Part shown: positions 20,259 through 28,909 of the stretch, piece after piece
How the letters are laid out: every line of letters starts with the position of its first letter
Position numbering within the stretch: the stretch's first letter is position 1
Assembly (NCBI GenBank): GCA_030524035.1
Contig: JAUNHG010000002.1
Coordinates: forward strand, 477,860 to 541,037
DNA: 63,178 nucleotides
Origin: Kocuria sp.
GTDB taxonomy: Bacteria > Actinomycetota > Actinomycetes > Actinomycetales > Micrococcaceae
Direction: 5' to 3'
Program-made: the position numbers and the translations under genes
Notes under the pieces: generated by a model
What the model saw: the letters and a program-made list of their open reading frames with translations, nothing else
What the model was told of the DNA's origin: nothing
Database searches by the model: none

Positions 20259-21101
20259 TTAATTCTCTTTGTGATCATTAAGTATTTCTAAAATATTTTC
20301 TTTCACCATGGGGTTATGGAGCTGCGCTTGATCTGAATACTGATGAACAGTCACCTTCCCCACCAGCTCCGGGTGCTCTAAGAAAAAATTTTGAAAAATA
20401 CTCATTTGAACTTTTCGGTCAATTTCGGAAGCCATGTTAATCCAGTAGTCGATACGCAAGGGACTCTGGTTATTTGACAAATATCGCAGAGAGTTCACAC
20501 GCCGGGGCCATTTCTTACGCACCTCGGCTGCCGTTCGACCGTCAAAATATCTCTCTAGCACTGGTTTAACGTGCTGCGGATACCAGCGCGTCCAATCAAA
20601 TTGAGCGTTATTCACAACCGCACGCGCACCACGATCTGAGCCTAACTGCATCAACGCGGTAAACCCCCCAGCCGAGGAACCAAAATATGTTCGGTCGGCA
20701 GGCCTGAGAACTCCTAGCGCAATTGAAATATATTTCAAAGCCTTTACCATGTGGGGCCCAAACCACTGCGGAGGTTTGCACTGCATCCATGGCAAGCTCA
20801 GCGCATCATCACCAACTGTTCGAGGGTCACAAACATAAATTTGTTTTGATTCGATCCCTTCCCACCAGGAGGAACGCTGAAAAATGGGCTTGCCCTGAGA
20901 GCGCTCTAGATCCACAGCGCCGTTATTCAGTACTAACAATCGAGGAAAGTTACGATTGATCACCAGGAGGGGAAGCACCACATGCGGAGTAACCACATCC
21001 ACCCTGGTGGGAGTGTCCATAACAAACGCACCCGCATCCACCTGTTGCAGCTCTTCCAGGGTGAGAACGAGGGTGTCGTCATCAGTTTTCAGCCAGTTCA
21101 T
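20259..21101 (-). CDS. Alpha/beta-hydrolase-like protein of polysaccharide locus (second copy)
   Basis: This 280-residue cytoplasmic protein has a nucleophile elbow GSSAGGF at residues 141-147 (S143 as candidate nucleophile) after RTYF, and a late LHNPM with a conserved His. The layout matches the plus-strand product at 17461-18339, although overall identity looks low. Similar proteins occur beside capsule genes in other actinobacteria, but I know no assigned reaction. The start overlaps the end of the upstream asparagine-synthetase-like gene by 20 bp, with a GGAG next to the ATG. An esterase or acyltransferase role on the polymer is inference. Confidence 0.6.
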   Translation of the reverse strand: MNWLKTDDDTLVLTLEELQQVDAGAFVMDTPTRVDVVTPHVVLPLLVINRNFPRLLVLNNGAVDLERSQGKPIFQRSSWWEGIESKQIYVCDPRTVGDDALSLPWMQCKPPQWFGPHMVKALKYISIALGVLRPADRTYFGSSAGGFTALMQLGSDRGARAVVNNAQFDWTRWYPQHVKPVLERYFDGRTAAEVRKKWPRRVNSLRYLSNNQSPLRIDYWINMASEIDRKVQMSIFQNFFLEHPELVGKVTVHQYSDQAQLHNPMVKENILEILNDHKEN

Positions 21102-23307
21102 CTCCAGCCCACTTGTCGGTCAAGGAGGAGCTCTCCGCAGTATCGGGCACAAGGTCCCTCACAGGATACGGGAGTGGAAGACGTTTCTGATCAGATAGAC
21201 CTAATGCCGCACCATAAACAGTGCTCAAACCGTGATTTTTCGCATCAAACCGGATGTCCGTGACATTTACGCGGGACGCGTTTTCCCATGAAATTCTGTC
21301 CCGATCCTTATGCACCAAAATAGCCAACCGGACGGTCTGTCCGCTCGACAACCCCCGCACCGCAACCGGCAGGCGCCCCGCATCATGGGAGCCGGGAATA
21401 GTAAGCACCGGTGTGTCATCAGCCAACACGGAATAGGAAAAGCTCTGAACACCGTTGGGGTAGGCCCAGGTGGTATGCAGGTCAAAAAAGAGTTCACCAT
21501 CTTCCACACACTGATACATCACCCGGTAAACCGCAGCGCCAGCAGCAAAGTGCTGCAACGGCACGTGGGCAAACCACTCTGTGTGTGCATCCGACGACAC
21601 CTCATGACTGGATCCGTTGGGTTCCATAACGATCAAGGGGTGCGCGATCTGGCGAGGCTCAATAACCGGTGATTCATCCACAAACGAATCCTGATCATCT
21701 GATTCATCAGTCACTGGTGCAGCCACCGCCGCAGACCCCTCAATTATAAAGTCCTCCGCCACAGCAGATTTCTCTATCACAGCTTCCTCTGTCGGCCCCT
21801 GATCCAAGATCGGAAGCGCCGATGTGGCAGCATGTCGATGCCGATCGTGCAATGCTGATCCATGGTCGTCTACCCCGGAGAGCGTCGGACCCGCCATAGT
21901 GCGTTTCACCAGCTCGTGATACGCATACGACGCTGCTCGCTGCTCCCGGTCGAAAGCCAACAGCGGTTCGAGGAGGGCGCGACAGCTCATCGGTACAAAG
22001 GAGTCGAAGGCTATATCAATTTCGTTGTACAGTTCGCTAGCCCAACGGCCCAAGCGGTATTCCCACTGCGTGAGATCAGAGGCCAAGTATCCGTGCAGCT
22101 GACCCGCCAGTTCCTGTTCTTCAAAAGCGCGCGTGAAGTGATCAGCCAGTGATTCCCCGGGAATCTGCACTCCCGCTGCTGCGGCTCGCTTGACCAAACG
22201 CACTTTGGCCGCTGATGCAACATCCATTGCTTTGGGAGAGGCCCATTTGTGCTCCGCGATATCCATGCCATTTGAACGAATCACTAACTGATCAGCCACT
22301 GAATAACGAGTCAGGTAGTGCGGCAGTAACCATCGACTGTGCACATCCACAGAGTTACGTTCACAAGCGTCTTCTTCCTCAGCGGTGAGCTGACGCAGGT
22401 TGGGATCCCGATGGTCAAAAACCGTGTGATCCACACGCATAGAATTCACCAAAGACTGCACAGATTGGGTACTTCCCGGGGTTGATACAACGGGTGCCGT
22501 CATAGATGCCCCGCCCGCGGATCCGTGGGAAAAACAGGAAATCTTTGACATCCACGGCAGAGAAAGCACCAAGGCACAATAAGAATCTATGCCGTTGCCC
22601 AATGCAAAGCGCACGGGCACACCTGAACTGGTTGCCTGCCATAACTGCCTGGACCAGAGGGCCTCTACCCGATCCAATCGCTCTTGCGCACTGTGGTTAA
22701 CCCATTGGTTGGGTTGATATGGCCAGTACCGTTCAATCCGACCGCTGGCGGCCTCCACTCGATGGTTGGGCAATAACGCCCGCACACCCCGATATGGGGA
22801 AAGATCCCATGTGTGATTGGACCTGAGCACACCAGAAGATCCGCGGTCAAAGACCTCAGCCAACAAGTGCGCGTGTGACGCTACCCCGGCAGTCCCAGCT
22901 GCCGATGATTCTGGGTGCAGGTAATACACAGAACGTGTCCCCATCGCATCGTGGTACACCCATACCTGTTCATCAGCCAACCGAAGTGCCACAAAACGTC
23001 CGGCCAGGTGGTCTAGGACTTCCAAGAAAGCCCGTTCCCCCTTCTCCAGCGCGGTCGCTAAGCGTTGTGCTGGCGGAATGGGACGAGCAGATTCTGGCCC
23101 CGGGACTTCGTTAAGGTCATGGACCCTTCCGTGCACCAGGATCTGTTCCCCTGTAGCGGATTGGGCCACAGTAACGAGGCGCCGGGAATCGTAGAAAAAA
23201 TTGAAACCATCACGCAGTTCCATGCGACGGTACGTGGAAGGCAGCACTTTGGGGCTACGTCCACGCAGCAGGCAGAACCCGTATGCGTAAGTCTTGGGAT
23301 GTACCAC
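21082..23307 (-). CDS. Asparagine-synthetase-like protein with degenerate sites and C-terminal beta-sandwich
   Basis: In this product of about 741 residues, the N-terminal part looks like the glutamine-amidotransferase half of AsnB proteins: LDHLAGRFVALRLADEQVW followed by AMGTRSVYYL. It lacks the N-terminal Cys nucleophile. The middle part has VRFALGNGIDSYCAL where AsnB has the PP-loop SGGxDS, so ATP binding may be altered or lost. A hydrophilic Glu/Asp/Ser linker follows, and then about 150 residues of strand-rich sequence (FDLHTTWAYPNGVQSFSYSV) that may bind carbohydrate. I start at GTG 23307, 10 nt after the wecB stop; an upstream start would overlap wecB by up to 95 bp. The function is unknown. 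Amide transfer to a uronic acid would suit the locus but is speculative. Confidence 0.6.
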   Translation of the reverse strand: MVHPKTYAYGFCLLRGRSPKVLPSTYRRMELRDGFNFFYDSRRLVTVAQSATGEQILVHGRVHDLNEVPGPESARPIPPAQRLATALEKGERAFLEVLDHLAGRFVALRLADEQVWVYHDAMGTRSVYYLHPESSAAGTAGVASHAHLLAEVFDRGSSGVLRSNHTWDLSPYRGVRALLPNHRVEAASGRIERYWPYQPNQWVNHSAQERLDRVEALWSRQLWQATSSGVPVRFALGNGIDSYCALVLSLPWMSKISCFSHGSAGGASMTAPVVSTPGSTQSVQSLVNSMRVDHTVFDHRDPNLRQLTAEEEDACERNSVDVHSRWLLPHYLTRYSVADQLVIRSNGMDIAEHKWASPKAMDVASAAKVRLVKRAAAAGVQIPGESLADHFTRAFEEQELAGQLHGYLASDLTQWEYRLGRWASELYNEIDIAFDSFVPMSCRALLEPLLAFDREQRAASYAYHELVKRTMAGPTLSGVDDHGSALHDRHRHAATSALPILDQGPTEEAVIEKSAVAEDFIIEGSAAVAAPVTDESDDQDSFVDESPVIEPRQIAHPLIVMEPNGSSHEVSSDAHTEWFAHVPLQHFAAGAAVYRVMYQCVEDGELFFDLHTTWAYPNGVQSFSYSVLADDTPVLTIPGSHDAGRLPVAVRGLSSGQTVRLAILVHKDRDRISWENASRVNVTDIRFDAKNHGLSTVYGAALGLSDQKRLPLPYPVRDLVPDTAESSSLTDKWAGDELAEN

Positions 23308-23317
23308 GGAATTGAAC

Positions 23318-24481
23318 TCAGTTCTGTGTGGATGCGAGCGGGTCAAAGTCAGGCAATCGCTCACCGATGCCAAACATCTGCTCGATGGCAGCCACCGTGC
23401 GAGCGGAAGCATGACCGTCGCCGTAAGGGTTCACGGCATTTGCCATAGCGTCATGAATTGCTTGGTTATGAAGCAATGCATCCACTTCCGCCACAATGCG
23501 ATCCTCGTCAGTGCCGATCAGCTTGACCGTACCTGCTGTCACGGCTTCCGGTCTTTCTGTGTTCTCCCGCATCACCAATACTGGTTTACCAAGGGAAGGG
23601 GCTTCTTCCTGCACGCCACCAGAATCCGTAAGCACGATATCCGCGACGGAAAGCATACGGGTAAATTCCCCATAAGCCATGGGCTCCGTGACATGAACAT
23701 TTGCTTTGTCTTTGATGATCGGCAGAACAGCTTCCCGGACCACAGGGTTACGGTGAGCAGGCAGCACAACTGTCACATCAGGTTCTGCGTCGGCAATCCG
23801 AGCCAAAGCGCGACCCACACCACGCATGGCCTCCCCCTGATTTTCACGCCGATGCGTGGTAACCAATAAAGTCTTGCCGTCGCGATCAACAATGCTTTCT
23901 AATTGGGCGTCAGAAAACGGCAGCGCCTTAGCAACCGTGTGGTGAAGAGCATCAATCACGGTGTTACCGGTAACCACAACATCATCACCGTTGATAGCTT
24001 CCGCCAGCAGGTTACGTTTCGAAATCTCCGTGGGAGCCAGATGAAGGCTGGTGATTTGCGAGGTCAGCTTGCGATTGGCTTCTTCGGGGAAGGGGGAGAA
24101 CAGATTGAAGGACCGCAAGCCAGCTTCAGCATGAATCACCGGGATTCCCCGGTAAAACGCCGCAATCGCACCGGCCGTTGACGTGGTGGTATCGCCTTGA
24201 ACAATCACCGCGTCCGGAGCGGTATCGGAAAAAATCTGCTCCAACCCTTCAACAGTACGAGTCAAAACACCATTGAGGGTCTGCCGAGGTCTGATGATAT
24301 TGAGATCATGCCGGGGTGTGATATCAAAAATCTCATTGACTTGGTCCAGCATTTCCCGATGCTGGCCGGTGACCGTGACTACACACTCGAACTTGGGGGA
24401 GTCCTGAAGGACCTTCACAATTGGGGCCATCTTGATGGCCTCTGGTCGCGTCCCATAGATCGGCATGATGGTCAGGGGCAT
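23318..24481 (-). CDS. wecB: UDP-N-acetylglucosamine 2-epimerase (non-hydrolysing)
   Basis: This enzyme interconverts UDP-GlcNAc and UDP-ManNAc in the cytoplasm. It has 387 residues, normal for the bacterial enzyme. Family motifs are present in order: IYGTRPEAIKMAPI at the N-terminus, VTGQHREMLDQ, VIVQGDTTST, VIHAEAGLRSF with SPFPEEANRKL, LVTTHRRENQG with the catalytic-region His, and LTDSGGVQEEAPSLGKPVLVMRENTERPE near the C-terminus (LTDSGGVQEEAP is the UDP-binding segment). AGGAAGAG lies upstream of ATG 24481. It appears to lead a minus-strand operon with the four genes below it. With the dehydrogenase at 8482 it completes the route to UDP-ManNAcA. Confidence 0.95.
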   Translation of the reverse strand: MPLTIMPIYGTRPEAIKMAPIVKVLQDSPKFECVVTVTGQHREMLDQVNEIFDITPRHDLNIIRPRQTLNGVLTRTVEGLEQIFSDTAPDAVIVQGDTTTSTAGAIAAFYRGIPVIHAEAGLRSFNLFSPFPEEANRKLTSQITSLHLAPTEISKRNLLAEAINGDDVVVTGNTVIDALHHTVAKALPFSDAQLESIVDRDGKTLLVTTHRRENQGEAMRGVGRALARIADAEPDVTVVLPAHRNPVVREAVLPIIKDKANVHVTEPMAYGEFTRMLSVADIVLTDSGGVQEEAPSLGKPVLVMRENTERPEAVTAGTVKLIGTDEDRIVAEVDALLHNQAIHDAMANAVNPYGDGHASARTVAAIEQMFGIGERLPDFDPLASTQN

Positions 24482-24595
24482 GGCACACTCTTCCTGCTGC
24501 CGGACACAGCGCTGGGGCGAACTGGAGGACTTGCCACCAGCATACGGGAGACAAGCAGCAGACCGACCCTCTCAGTCCAACATTGCTGACCTGAG

Positions 24596-25255
24596 TCACA
24601 ATTGCACCATCCCGGCCCGATGTGCGGCGATGACCAATTGCAAACGATCCCTTACCCCAAATTTGGCGACAAGATGAGTCACATGCAACTTGACGGATTT
24701 CTCCGAAATACCCAGCAGCTCCGCCACCTCTTTATTGCTGCACCCTGAAGCCAGGTACTTCAGCACTTCGGTCTCACGCGCAGTCAAGATGACCGCAGGG
24801 GGTAATTCATGGCGCTTGTCCTCCCCCCGTAAGTGCCCCACCACAGCTTCCAGCGCGGAAGGGGATAACTCGGTGCGTCCGGTTAATGCCTGCCGCACCG
24901 TGGTGAGGATTCGCTCCGGGGGGTCTGACTTCAAGACATATCCAGACGCGCCAGCACGCAAGGCCGGGACCACAGCATCCGCTGTGGTGAAAGTAGTGAT
25001 CATGACAACCTGCGTGGACGGCAAAGTTCGCAAGAGCTCAGCAGTTGCTTCCACCCCATTCACACGCGGCATCTGGATATCCATCAAGACAATATCCGGA
25101 CGCAGGGTCATAGCCATTTGAACAGCCGAACGCCCGTCAGAAGCCGTTCCAACCACTTCCATATCCCCAGCACTACCGACATATACCGATAGCGTTTCCC
25201 GAACAACGGCTTCGTCGTCCGCAATCAGTACGCGATAGATTGCACGAGTCATCAT
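24596..25255 (-). CDS. NarL/LuxR-family response regulator
   Basis: This is a cytoplasmic two-component DNA-binding regulator. The receiver domain has the acidic pair in LIADDEAV, the phospho-acceptor D59 in IVLMDIQMP, a Thr in MITTFTTAD and a Lys in VLKSDPPE. A LuxR-type helix-turn-helix covers roughly the last 65 residues (TARETEVLKYLASGCSNKEVA, then SVKLHVTHLVAKFG). I start at ATG 25255. A longer reading from 25297 would run into the palindrome at 25299-25312 and adds 14 residues with no family counterpart. It is divergent from the peptide and kinase genes at 25462 and 25673, and the kinase is its obvious partner. The gene sits directly beside the polysaccharide locus, which could be one of its targets. 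Confidence 0.9.
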   Translation of the reverse strand: MMTRAIYRVLIADDEAVVRETLSVYVGSAGDMEVVGTASDGRSAVQMAMTLRPDIVLMDIQMPRVNGVEATAELLRTLPSTQVVMITTFTTADAVVPALRAGASGYVLKSDPPERILTTVRQALTGRTELSPSALEAVVGHLRGEDKRHELPPAVILTARETEVLKYLASGCSNKEVAELLGISEKSVKLHVTHLVAKFGVRDRLQLVIAAHRAGMVQL

Positions 25256-25298
25256 GGGGCCAGGCACACTCCTCGACTCACTGAACTCTGCGCACATT

Positions 25299-25312
25299 GA
25301 CAGGTACCTGTC
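25299..25312. promoter_or_regulatory. Perfect 14-bp palindrome in the regulator/peptide intergenic region
   Basis: GACAGGTACCTGTC reads identically on both strands. It overlaps a TTGACA hexamer (25297-25302) that could be a -35 element for the peptide-kinase transcript. It is about 45 bp from the response-regulator start and 150 bp from the peptide start. Length and symmetry fit a dimeric NarL-type regulator site, so autoregulation is plausible. No experiment supports this. Confidence 0.45.
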
Positions 25313-25461
25313 CGTATACGTTCACATTAGCTACCCAAAGGTGCGCCACGCCGACCCCAGAATATCCTGGGCTTGCGGGTCCATGATAGGTGTTGGCTAG
25401 GAACCACAGCATGTTAGATCCGCGCTTTTACCCGTCCGTCTTGTTGATGTAGGAGCACACC

Positions 25462-25671
25462 ATGACCTTGTTCAAGAGATCCAGAAAAGCTGCAGCAGCG
25501 ACTGTGCTCGCCGGGTCCATGTTGGTTAGCGGCACTCTGACGACTGTGGCCCTCGGCCCGACGCTATCCGCAGACTCAGCACCAGGCGTCATAGTCACCA
25601 ACCCAGTCAAAGCGGAGCCCGCCATCGTCTGGAGCGTATTATGCCAGGTCGCAGGGCGGTGCAAAGGCTAG
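25462..25671 (+). CDS. Small secreted peptide, candidate signal for the adjacent kinase
   Basis: The 69-residue product has a basic start (KRSRK), a hydrophobic core at about residues 10-32 and possible signal-peptidase sites after A37 (TLSA) or A40 (DSA). That leaves a mature peptide of about 29-32 residues ending in LCQVAGRCKG. C61 and C67 (C-x5-C) could close a small disulfide ring outside the cell. A strong GTAGGAG (25449-25455) precedes the ATG, and codon structure looks real. The stop codon is 1 bp before the GTG start of the histidine kinase, so the two are co-transcribed and probably translationally coupled. I know no family for it. A peptide pheromone sensed by the kinase is the leading hypothesis; a small accessory secreted protein is the alternative. 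Confidence 0.72.
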   Translation: MTLFKRSRKAAAATVLAGSMLVSGTLTTVALGPTLSADSAPGVIVTNPVKAEPAIVWSVLCQVAGRCKG

Positions 25672-25672
25672 C

Positions 25673-26995
25673 GTGAAACTTTTGACCACGCTTATACATC
25701 CGCGACCCGCAATAACTGGCAGTTGGCCAGAGTTGCGGGTCGCGGATTCATTACCCGTACCCATGGTTTTACGCCTCATTGGCGGTCTATTATTCGGGGG
25801 ACTTGCGACCATAGACGTCCTACGTGCTTTAGGGCCAGCCCATTTTGAACCCCGCGGGCCCAACAGTGAAGGGCTCGAAATCTTGGCCCTCACAGGGGCT
25901 TCATATCTTCCCTTAATCGCGATTTTAGTGGGACCACGTCTTGGGGCGTTGGCCCTGGCCTGCGCCTACGTGACAGCGTTGCTGTCTGAATCTTTCTTCA
26001 TCCTGCTCTTACCTGGTTTCATCTGCACGGTCGTCCTCTCTATGTGGCTACCGTGGACCCTCGGAGCCTTGTTAGTGGTAGCGCAGCTACTCGCGACCCT
26101 CGGCATCGGAATTGTCATTACTGACAATAACGCCCTGCTCTGGGGATTCATCCTCGTTCTCCTCATCGGAACTGCCACAGCCCTTGGAATGACTATCCGG
26201 TTTTTCCGATGCCGTGCGCTACTGTCCGCACGCAAAATCGTCAGAATGGAAAGTGAAGCACGACAAGTACGAGCCGCAGAACGTCAAGATTTGGCCCGAG
26301 AGCTACACGACCTTGTGGCGCATGACGTCACCGCCACAGCTTTACGGGCCAATGCAGGTTTACTCTCCAATGACCAAGACTTCCAACGAACCGCCCTGCA
26401 AGATATTGCCGACAGCGCCAGTGGCACCATTGCGGACCTCCGTCGTCTAGTTAATATCCTGCGTGAAGAACCCGTCAGAACCCCCACGACGACGGTGCCA
26501 CAAAATGAATACCCGCACGGTGCGCTGATCTTTGAGAAACTTCCACCCCCCACACCCACGATGTCGGACGTACTCCAACACAGTGTGCGCACACTACGTG
26601 ACTCTGGATACAGGGACATCGCCGTTAACGAAGGCCCCGGTTGGGAATACGTGACGACCTCCGTGCGCAGTGTGTGCCAACGAGTGGTACAGGAGTCCTG
26701 TGCGAACATCGTCCGACACGGTCACCTCGGTGGCGCCATCCGCATCCGTGTAGAAATCACCAGCTCTTTGGACGGAGCAGGGCACGCGGAAGTGGAGGTA
26801 AGCAATCAAATGGACCACTCGCCGCAACGAGATTCCATCGCACCCCAGGCGGTGTTAAGCGCCGGTGGATTTGGCCTCCTGGGACTTCAAGAACGAATTT
26901 CTGTCTTCGGTGGAGAGCTCAGCAGCGGCCCCGACGGGGACCGCTGGGTGGTGTATGCCCGATTACCGCTCCAGGAAATCGACCTCCGTGCGTGA
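25673..26995 (+). CDS. Membrane sensor histidine kinase (HisKA_3 type)
   Basis: The 440-residue kinase has an N-terminal sensor made of about five hydrophobic spans between residues 30 and 175, with short loops and no large extracellular domain. A dimerisation/phospho-acceptor helix carries H212 in ARELHDLVAHDVT. A HATPase_c domain follows, with the N-box region around ESCANIVRHGH and a G-box GGFGLLGLQERI. This architecture pairs with NarL-type regulators, as encoded divergently at 24596-25255. Multi-span sensors of this kind often sense small hydrophobic or peptide ligands. AAAGG (25663-25667) lies 5 nt before GTG 25673, inside the end of the peptide gene. Confidence 0.9.
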   Translation: MKLLTTLIHPRPAITGSWPELRVADSLPVPMVLRLIGGLLFGGLATIDVLRALGPAHFEPRGPNSEGLEILALTGASYLPLIAILVGPRLGALALACAYVTALLSESFFILLLPGFICTVVLSMWLPWTLGALLVVAQLLATLGIGIVITDNNALLWGFILVLLIGTATALGMTIRFFRCRALLSARKIVRMESEARQVRAAERQDLARELHDLVAHDVTATALRANAGLLSNDQDFQRTALQDIADSASGTIADLRRLVNILREEPVRTPTTTVPQNEYPHGALIFEKLPPPTPTMSDVLQHSVRTLRDSGYRDIAVNEGPGWEYVTTSVRSVCQRVVQESCANIVRHGHLGGAIRIRVEITSSLDGAGHAEVEVSNQMDHSPQRDSIAPQAVLSAGGFGLLGLQERISVFGGELSSGPDGDRWVVYARLPLQEIDLRA

Positions 26996-27091
26996 ATTAC
27001 CGCCGATGCAAAGCTAGCCGAATGACCATAATGTGACGGCGCGCCCATGAAAGTTCTGAAACATCTACCAATCTCAAATTACTTCACGGTA

Positions 27092-27112
27092 GGGTCGGTT
27101 AAGACCCGTTTT
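27092..27112 (+). terminator. Rho-independent terminator after the kinase gene
   Basis: GGGTC (27092-27096) and GACCC (27103-27107) form a 5-bp stem with a 6-nt loop, followed by G and four T residues (27109-27112). It lies about 100 bp after the kinase stop and 75 bp before the next gene, a suitable place to end the peptide-kinase transcript. Confidence 0.5.
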
Positions 27113-27187
27113 CCTCGCGGTGCACCCTAACCCAGCCGTTGATCGGTTGTTTGACCGCGTTGACGTTCCCTTCGAGGTGATGGTGCC

Positions 27188-27856
27188 ATGAAACGCGACC
27201 CGGCAGTAGGGCATTCTGCTCTGAACTTGAAAGTTCAAGATCCCAAAGGGCAGAACCTGATGCTGAACCGTGACATTCTCCGGCGAACCTACGGCGCGGT
27301 CAGGGACATCAGCCAATACTTCTACGCTACACTCAATACCAATTTCCTTAACCCCGACATTACCGAAACACCGCTGTCCATCTCCTTCACGGAAAACCAC
27401 GACGGTGCCATAACATTCATCGCTGATCAACTTACCGCCCCAGAACGCACACAGGGAGGTTTCTTGGCCAGCCTGTGGCGCACCAGTCAAGAATCACTCG
27501 ACTCCACCCGCCCCCAAAGGGCCCTGCAGAACACACTTCTCCTTGCTCACGCAGTCACCTTCGCCCTCGAGGTAGGGGAGATCAGAGCACACCCACTGGG
27601 GGATGGTGAACTGGCAGACCTTACGTCACCCACTGATGCCCAACGCTTAAGAATTCCCACCGAAGTAGCCGACGCCCTGTCAGATACCACCATTCAAGCC
27701 ACTTTACGCGAGCTACTATCTCCCCTGGGCGAAGAAGGGGTTGGAGCAATTGTGATGGGCTCAGACCCGCGCGCACCAGAATTGCGCACAGAATGCGTCA
27801 TTCCAGCAACAGATATTTTCGTGGAATTTCAAGCAGGGAAAGAACTTTTATCTTAA
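27188..27856 (+). CDS. Unknown protein, paralog of the converging neighbour
   Basis: This is a 222-residue soluble protein with no signal peptide or membrane span. I do not recognise the family. Its C-terminal 60 residues (from RIPTEVADAL through SDPRAPELRTE to VIPATDIFVEF) align by eye with the end of the product of the converging gene at 27869-28645 (RVPVVMAKMF, RDPLDPEVRQE, VIVPLTEEFHARI). GAGG (27174-27177) is 10 nt from the ATG. The two genes converge with only 12 bp between their stops. A paired or antagonistic role is possible; nothing in the sequence names a function. Confidence 0.65.
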   Translation: MKRDPAVGHSALNLKVQDPKGQNLMLNRDILRRTYGAVRDISQYFYATLNTNFLNPDITETPLSISFTENHDGAITFIADQLTAPERTQGGFLASLWRTSQESLDSTRPQRALQNTLLLAHAVTFALEVGEIRAHPLGDGELADLTSPTDAQRLRIPTEVADALSDTTIQATLRELLSPLGEEGVGAIVMGSDPRAPELRTECVIPATDIFVEFQAGKELLS

Positions 27857-27868
27857 GAACCCATGGAA

Positions 27869-28645
27869 TTAATTTGGTTTTTCTAAACCTGATATTCCAG
27901 TATCGAAAGACTGACGTCTTTCACGCTTTGTCAGAACCGAGCTCAAAGGGGACTCTTCAAAATCTACTTTTGCAAAAAGTGAAAAGAAATCTTCGTGAAT
28001 AATTCTCGCATGAAATTCTTCCGTCAACGGAACAATTACTTCTTGGCGCACTTCAGGATCCAATGGATCGCGAACAATGACTACTGAACGTAATTCTGGG
28101 ATCATTAAAGCAGTCAGCATATTGCGCACGGCATCCACCATTTCGGGTGCCCCGTCGAACATTTTGGCCATCACAACGGGAACTCTGTAGGTTCGGCGAT
28201 TATTCAACACCAGGGTCCCAAAACCATCGCTGTCCGCAGAAGCGCTTACACGGATATCGTCAGCCAGGGCGATCGGGGGAACGAGCTGCACCGTCATAGA
28301 TAACAACTCCGACAGCCAACGCAACATTCGCCTCAGCTCGTCACGATAACGACTCGGCACGGGGGAGAGGAGCTGAACCCATCGAGGCCGTGGGTCGTAT
28401 GCACTCAACTCCAAACGAAAAGCACCAGGGGCCATATTGGTGTATTGAAGGTCAAACTCGGGAAGCACACCGGTGTACCCACGATCCCGCGCAATCAGCG
28501 AACTGGAACGCTGCATCAATTTCACAACACCCGCCCGTGTGATATCTACCACCTGCTGACTAGGGACGAATGGACCATTTTCAGCCTCTAGGCGGACATC
28601 ACCATAAACCTGCGCCAGGATCGCACCACTGCGCGACGGATACAT
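27869..28645 (-). CDS. Unknown protein, paralog of the converging neighbour
   Basis: The product is a 258-residue soluble protein without recognised domains. It is mostly strand and helix alternation, with an Arg-rich segment (SRYRDELRRMLRWL) near the middle. Its C-terminal third resembles that of the protein at 27188-27856, and it continues about 35 residues further into a basic tail. ATG 28645 is preferred because GAGGGG lies about 9 nt upstream. A GTG at 28666 is an alternative. The 264 bp upstream, to the ABC1 kinase gene, hold an inverted repeat (CAAATG at 28760-28765, CATTTG at 28770-28775) that could be an operator, and nothing else I can support. Confidence 0.65.
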   Translation of the reverse strand: MYPSRSGAILAQVYGDVRLEAENGPFVPSQQVVDITRAGVVKLMQRSSSLIARDRGYTGVLPEFDLQYTNMAPGAFRLELSAYDPRPRWVQLLSPVPSRYRDELRRMLRWLSELLSMTVQLVPPIALADDIRVSASADSDGFGTLVLNNRRTYRVPVVMAKMFDGAPEMVDAVRNMLTALMIPELRSVVIVRDPLDPEVRQEVIVPLTEEFHARIIHEDFFSLFAKVDFEESPLSSVLTKRERRQSFDTGISGLEKPN

Positions 28646-28909
28646 CCTTTCTTTCCCCTCGTTCACATACCACCTGAGCCATCAAATATATGGGGGAGCG
28701 CCATACTGAACGAGCCAGCACGCTCCAACGGACCTTAAAAGTGTACTTATAGTAGTGGACAAATGCATTCATTTGACTGAATTTTTACACACCACACATC
28801 ATCACACCATGGACAGGACCTGAGATCACTAGGTTCTTTGTCCCCAATACTGCTTACCGCGCAGAGATCCTGTACACAAACTGATACGAGATCCGCAGTC
28901 TGCAACGGA

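Follow-up and report, generated by a model that had tools for sequence, protein, structure and literature searches.

A candidate peptide-signalling cassette beside a HisKA_3 sensor kinase in Kocuria and related actinobacteria

Introduction

Firmicutes are known to carry out quorum sensing with peptides that a membrane kinase detects. In the Agr system the signals are thiolactone rings made by AgrB from a peptide with a single ring cysteine and a cleaved C-terminal recognition tail, and the system employs an HPK10 kinase and a LytTR regulator. The pheromones of the streptococcal ComCDE, Blp and Sil systems are made with a double-glycine leader and exported by an ABC exporter-protease. In the ComQXPA system of Bacillus the regulator, ComA, is of the LuxR type. 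Here we describe a locus of an actinobacterium, Kocuria sp. (assembly GCA_030524035.1, contig JAUNHG010000002.1, positions 477,860 to 541,037), in which a small gene for a peptide with a signal-like N-terminus lies directly ahead of a HisKA_3 histidine kinase gene and is divergent from a gene for a NarL-type response regulator. The whole stretch analysed, 63,178 nucleotides in length, is referred to as the window.

ComX is isoprenylated by ComQ, the four comQXPA genes lie on one strand, and a census reports no such system outside Firmicutes, according to the available part of PMC4008528. For Actinobacteria, the available part of a quorum-sensing review (PMC4748050) covers butyrolactones, LuxR homologues and cyclic or otherwise modified peptides in general, and names neither a histidine kinase nor a peptide–kinase pair.

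We consider it likely that the three Kocuria genes form a self-contained peptide-signalling cassette, in which the peptide would be exported by Sec, closed by a disulfide and sensed by the adjacent kinase as an autoinducer. With some hesitation we also lean towards a broader view, that such cassettes constitute an unrecognised pheromone class of Actinomycetota, in which Sec-exported disulfide-ring autoinducers, each encoded in a minimal three-gene unit, would provide many private channels.

Organisation and conservation of the locus

The peptide precursor, of 69 amino acids (aa), is encoded from an ATG at 25462–25671 on the forward strand and reads MTLFKRSRKAAAATVLAGSMLVSGTLTTVALGPTLSADSAPGVIVTNPVKAEPAIVWSVLCQVAGRCKG. 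Residues 1–37 (25462–25572) have the features of a Sec signal, a basic n-region followed by a hydrophobic stretch, and a signal-peptidase cut is proposed, on placement by eye, after A37. A linker leads to the C-terminal C61-x5-C67 (25642–25662), which is proposed to be a disulfide-closed ring. The ribosome-binding site TAGGAG (25450–25455, forward strand) stands six nucleotides ahead of the ATG. A single base (25672) separates the peptide stop codon from the GTG of the sensor kinase (25673–26995, forward strand, 440 aa), which has a Pfam HisKA_3 match of 8.9e-12 and a HATPase_c match of 3e-4, the latter below the cut-off of that model. The regulator, of 219 aa, occupies 24596–25255 on the reverse strand and matches Response_reg (1.5e-25) and GerE (1.6e-18). 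A longer ATG frame for it begins at 25297; the starts of its orthologues resemble the 25255 form. An earlier interpretation made from the DNA letters alone, here called the sequence-only reading, had described a signal-bearing 69-residue peptide one base before a HisKA_3 kinase, a strong ribosome site and a divergent NarL-type regulator, and the frames and Pfam matches bear out that description.

Conservation beside orthologous kinases, which that reading had put forward as a check, was found. Peptide orthologues are present in four of 26 other Kocuria genomes, at 46–56% identity (E 1.2e-13 to 1.9e-16), with both cysteines and the position of the gene retained. In all five loci of this window type the spacing from peptide stop to kinase start is one nucleotide, the regulator is divergent and AGGAG is kept. 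Residues invariant among the five members include R6, R8-K9, A37, E52-P53, C61, G65-R66 and C67. In this group the ratio of non-synonymous to synonymous differences (pN/pS) comes to 0.43 for the part ahead of the ring and 0.35 for the C-terminus, rough values given that synonymous sites are near saturation; pooled over groups, the ratios are 0.40 and 0.32.

The one-nucleotide spacing in the window group suggests that translation of the kinase is probably coupled to that of the peptide. It would also suit a leader peptide, or an accidental frame, that merely sets kinase translation. This explanation is highly improbable, since the amino acid sequence is conserved (pN/pS falls below 1 in every group except one), the N-terminus is signal-like and the cysteines are invariant; moreover, in other groups the spacing between peptide and kinase, by assigned starts, ranges from overlap to more than 100 nucleotides. 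A known RNA element as the explanation was ruled out by the lack of any Rfam match over 25200–27250. The window peptide has no Pfam or NCBIfam match, and none of eight precursors scanned rose above any cut-off in either database.

Distribution of the cassette

Small frames of differing sequence and the same plan, with a signal-like start, a linker and an aromatic-rich C-x4-9-C ring at the end, are found upstream of other Kocuria HisKA_3 kinases. They were catalogued with a detector that looks for a frame whose end lies close to the start of the kinase and a hydrophobic stretch with K or R before it or at its start; the detector also demands C-x4-9-C no more than 10 residues from the end, so that the two cysteines of the catalogued peptides are partly a matter of definition. 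Within Kocuria it was positive in 27 of the 30 kinase loci fetched (33 matches listed), spanning 23 of 27 genomes. Elsewhere in the same family 30 of 46 kinase loci were positive, or 32 when L190 and L194 are admitted under a relaxed n-region rule, and the plan occurs in ten genera of the family, nine of them besides Kocuria.

Scattered members also lie in several other families. Of the 80 named loci, retained as the best among 498 relatives, 19 were positive. They include Citricoccus, Micrococcus terreus, M. lylae, Arachnia propionica, Pseudopropionibacterium massiliense, Piscicoccus intestinalis, Raineyella antarctica and several Kocuria loci that repeat genomes already carrying a G handle; the named loci are in part these same genomes, and the two sets of counts overlap. 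At order and class level four of 52 loci were positive, the class-level sample being 30 loci of a longer match list. Loci with little or no upstream sequence (L087, L107 and L108 among the 80, L242 among the 52) were counted as negative. Only kinases with a peptide went into the alignments A2 and A4, and the positive rates describe that branch rather than HisKA_3 kinases at large.

In controls the detector was positive for three of 212 non-kinase genes of the named loci, none of them peptide-like when read, for 52 of 1540 dinucleotide shuffles, and for none of 20 more distant order-level HisKA_3 kinases (20 of 29 such matches were fetched). In the host genome, only one of five HisKA_3 kinases has a peptide. 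The low rates among non-kinase genes, distant kinases and the kinases of the host itself led us to reject a chance frame.

Presence of the peptide clusters on the kinase tree, which requires 12 changes against a mean of 30.3 after shuffling (none of 500 shuffles as low). Built by a quick method, the tree has long branches; it holds 103 kinases, 66 with and 37 without a peptide, although the latter include L190 and L194, which do carry one. Its rows comprise the Kocuria loci (30), the other loci of the family (46) and two selections made by hand, namely 20 from the 80 named loci and 20 from the 52 at order and class level, the latter including each of the four positives there. Three duplicates and ten short rows that had no peptide were left out. 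Seven single genomes (G001, G005, G019, G022, G029, G068 and G129) contain two cassettes with different rings.

Anatomy of the peptides

The 66 catalogued precursors have a median length of 65.5 aa, and 54 of them contain exactly two cysteines. The ring encloses six residues in 47 of the 66 and four to nine in the remainder; after loose clustering, six residues predominate in 15 of 23 clusters, compared with 18 of 109 chance matches in shuffled sequences. Aromatic residues occupy 31% of the positions in the ring, compared with 7.6% over the 20 that precede it, whilst acidic residues account for 1.7% of the ring. The second cysteine is the final residue in 22 of the 66. Examples of the C-terminus are SALCRFFPIYCNPR, VICGYFPYLCRGGH, YWCGFWGFFC, DWVCRNLGALCR, WFCKNYGLACG and DLCGYFLYLFCR; the first of these occurs in a cassette of Kocuria rhizophila TA68 (L076). 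Comparisons within six groups show a region of high identity that starts some 12 residues ahead of the first cysteine and continues to the C-terminus, with lower identity in the linker, a pattern that points to the last 20 residues or so as the active part.

Precursors of the g12 genomes (L189, L190, L193 and L194) are about 50 aa long, and their N-terminus is hydrophobic and contains no more than one basic residue. Their rings are of the CRAFP type, with eight residues, and end in cysteine. Judged by these features, g12 members are perhaps exported or anchored differently.

Two invariant cysteines in a short precursor tightly coupled to a kinase might also be expected of a redox or envelope-stress adaptor, in which the peptide would stay at the cell and its cysteine pair, as a thiol switch, would modulate the kinase in cis, with no signal passing between cells. 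The g12 N-terminus could remain as the anchor of such an adaptor. We regard this as unlikely: the ring interiors are hydrophobic, rich in aromatic residues and diverse between groups, properties that a generic switch would not need, and sites of signal-peptidase type are visible by eye in many precursors.

Composition of the cassette

A regulator related to that of the window is divergent and upstream in 56 of 62 peptide loci, lies on the same strand in three and is missing from the sequence fetched for the other three. When 19 named peptide loci in ten classes were compared over flanks of up to 3 kb, kinase matches were found in all ten classes and regulator matches in nine, the two propionibacterial loci being those without. 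Every other shared frame links two classes only (KocA with KocB, or Piscicoccus with MAG). Kinase and regulator being the sole frames common to more than two classes, the unit has, in these loci, no exporter, protease or modifying enzyme as a constant companion.

This composition bears on the possibility that the peptide is a small bacteriocin or other antimicrobial under the control of its own kinase and regulator. Secreted cysteine-containing peptides beside a two-component system do resemble class II bacteriocin loci, and one g23 precursor has a weak lactococcin_972 match (E 0.14, 12.5 bits against a cut-off of 32.1, in the signal region only). Neither an exporter nor an immunity gene is common to distant cassettes within 3 kb, however, and the scan of eight precursors described above gave no model above its cut-off. 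The one precursor tried had no plasmid match and the kinase only three weak partial ones, on which grounds plasmid-borne spread was rejected as well. We therefore think a bacteriocin quite unlikely.

The kinase and oxidative folding

The sequence-only reading had called the kinase multi-span, and an AlphaFold2 model built with 20 sequences (mean predicted local distance difference test (pLDDT) 74.5, predicted template modelling score 0.43) agrees, with six predicted membrane helices at residues 31–53, 65–86, 88–105, 109–125, 128–148 and from 154, the sixth continuing into the kinase. The input region, placed at residues 31–173 (25763–26191, forward strand) from the model and hydropathy, has pLDDT of about 71–90, except for 56–64 in the loop around residues 51–70. 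In this model the kinase input would consist of six hydrophobic membrane helices joined by loops of roughly 1–11 residues, with no outer domain. Short-loop membrane sensors of this kind, lacking an outer domain, are found in receptors of hydrophobic peptides, and we propose, on the arrangement of the genes and their products, that the kinase is the receptor of the peptide. A sequence search of the PDB returned only the kinase core (DesK, DevS, VraS and others) and nothing credible for the peptide.

The 2.3 Mb host genome encodes a VKOR and two DsbA-like proteins, in line with the export by Sec and disulfide closure that had been envisaged for the peptide. In actinobacteria MdbA catalyses the oxidative folding of exported proteins, as stated in the available part of PMC9974433, which makes disulfide closure plausible. 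No AgrB-type protease had been noticed in the window; a search with PF04647 likewise gave no match in the genome at E 1, but the control genomes did not yield a match above the cut-off either, which leaves the sensitivity of this search undemonstrated.

The conserved intergenic element and a proposed mechanism

Between the regulator and peptide genes lies a near-palindrome, CCAGAATATCCTGG (25357–25370), whose core AGAATATCCT (25359–25368) is identical in all five window-type loci. The core stands about 100 bases ahead of the peptide ATG, and the remainder of the intergenic region is poorly conserved among the five. The motif AGRATATYCT is present in 16 of 271 loci, every one of window type. 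The near-palindrome may be either an operator of the regulator or the -10 element of the peptide promoter.

Several Kocuria cassettes of other groups (within L038–L050) have regulator and peptide starts that are very close, with a conserved GATCATAAAC directly ahead of the peptide ATG, and a clear ribosome site is lacking. These cassettes possibly give leaderless messages.

The following mechanism can be proposed. The precursor would be exported by Sec and cut by signal peptidase I, in the window after A37, and the extracellular part would perhaps be trimmed to the conserved last 20 residues or so. A disulfide between the two C-terminal cysteines would be formed via the DsbA/VKOR pathway, and the sensor of the kinase, with its six helices embedded in the membrane, would read the resulting small hydrophobic ring. 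The kinase would then phosphorylate the divergently encoded NarL-type regulator, which would probably bind the near-palindrome upstream of the peptide gene, leading to autoinduction of the peptide–kinase operon. Such a circuit could serve to sense cell density.

Several observations weigh against this interpretation. The orthologous kinase of G010 (43% identity, E 5e-89) has a divergent regulator and no peptide frame, probably through natural loss, and some kinase subclades of the tree lack the peptide. A third cysteine is present in 12 of the 66 precursors, and the close pair g14 has pN/pS near 1 (1.09 and 0.82). At the level of regulation, no promoter-like site was found for the peptide gene, and the four copies of the core with one mismatch in the window are within chance, as 10 of 100 shuffles reach that number. 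Finally, peptide distances correlate with those of the kinase sensor part (r 0.74) and of its core (r 0.77); with the core held constant the sensor retains a partial correlation of 0.185 (none of 1000 permutations as high), but with the sensor held constant the core retains a higher one, 0.37, so that joint descent is demonstrated rather than specific co-variation of the sensor.

Neighbouring genes

A polysaccharide locus adjoining the cassette had been suggested as its target. This suggestion found no support: other Kocuria cassettes adjoin other genes, and the conserved element has no second intergenic site. AGRATATYCT occurs at two places in the host genome, and the sole other exact site lies inside a long coding frame, presumably dnaE; a polysaccharide target via this element was accordingly rejected. 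A wecB-like gene flanks the regulator in the window, L062 and L063. The stretch earlier called the polysaccharide locus also contains a 776-aa frame (21082–23412, reverse strand) with no Pfam match at E 0.1.

Downstream of the kinase, the products of 27188–27856 (forward strand) and 27869–28666 (reverse strand) rise above no Pfam cut-off and have in common a short C-terminal stretch, in which 13 of 39 positions are identical. A protein that looks similar, when read by eye, to the 27188–27856 product is encoded downstream of the G010 kinase (L037).

Comparison with known peptide-signalling systems

No previous description of the cassette was found in the literature searched, from which preprints and most subscription papers fell outside, so that an earlier report is possible. 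For the Micrococcus luteus competence pair Mlut_14100/14110, described in the available part of PMC8467076, the regions examined gave no clear link to a peptide cassette. If the proposal is correct, it would bring peptide-based two-component quorum sensing to Actinomycetota, for which the review cited in the Introduction, in its available part, names no peptide–kinase pair, and it would provide a testable molecular handle on communication in Micrococcaceae and their relatives. It would also mean that Sec and the oxidative folding of the host can substitute for dedicated export and modification enzymes. Cassettes with variable peptides offer ready parts for orthogonal signalling, and these actinobacteria may possess an unrecognised peptide language of their own.

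With its HisKA_3 kinase and its Response_reg–GerE regulator, the cassette belongs among the NarL/HisKA_3 two-component systems. It resembles Agr in that a cyclic peptide with a ring cysteine would be sensed by a membrane-embedded receptor kinase. It differs in having two invariant cysteines in the window and its four orthologues, a HisKA_3 kinase and a GerE regulator. An Agr-like thiolactone was rejected on the two-cysteine plan together with the lack of an AgrB match, a search of undemonstrated sensitivity as noted above. With ComCDE, Blp and Sil of streptococci it has in common a compact unit of secreted peptide, kinase and regulator, but the Kocuria leader is Sec-like, as judged by eye and hydropathy, and no exporter is common to distant cassettes within 3 kb.

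ComQXPA likewise places a variable small peptide gene beside genes for a multi-span HPK7 kinase and a regulator (PMC4008528 and PMC8895600, available parts). No ComQ was found by Pfam among the seven proteins beside the peptide (20259–28666), and no third frame is common to distant cassettes; the search for ComQ did not extend to a genome-wide profile search. Unlike the one-strand order of ComQXPA, the regulator is divergent in the window as in most of the peptide loci, and shares the strand in only the three noted above. The Kocuria precursor has a signal-like sequence and two cysteines, and it belongs to Actinomycetota. In its proposed working the Kocuria cassette is closest to ComX–ComP–ComA of Bacillus, but it is built differently.

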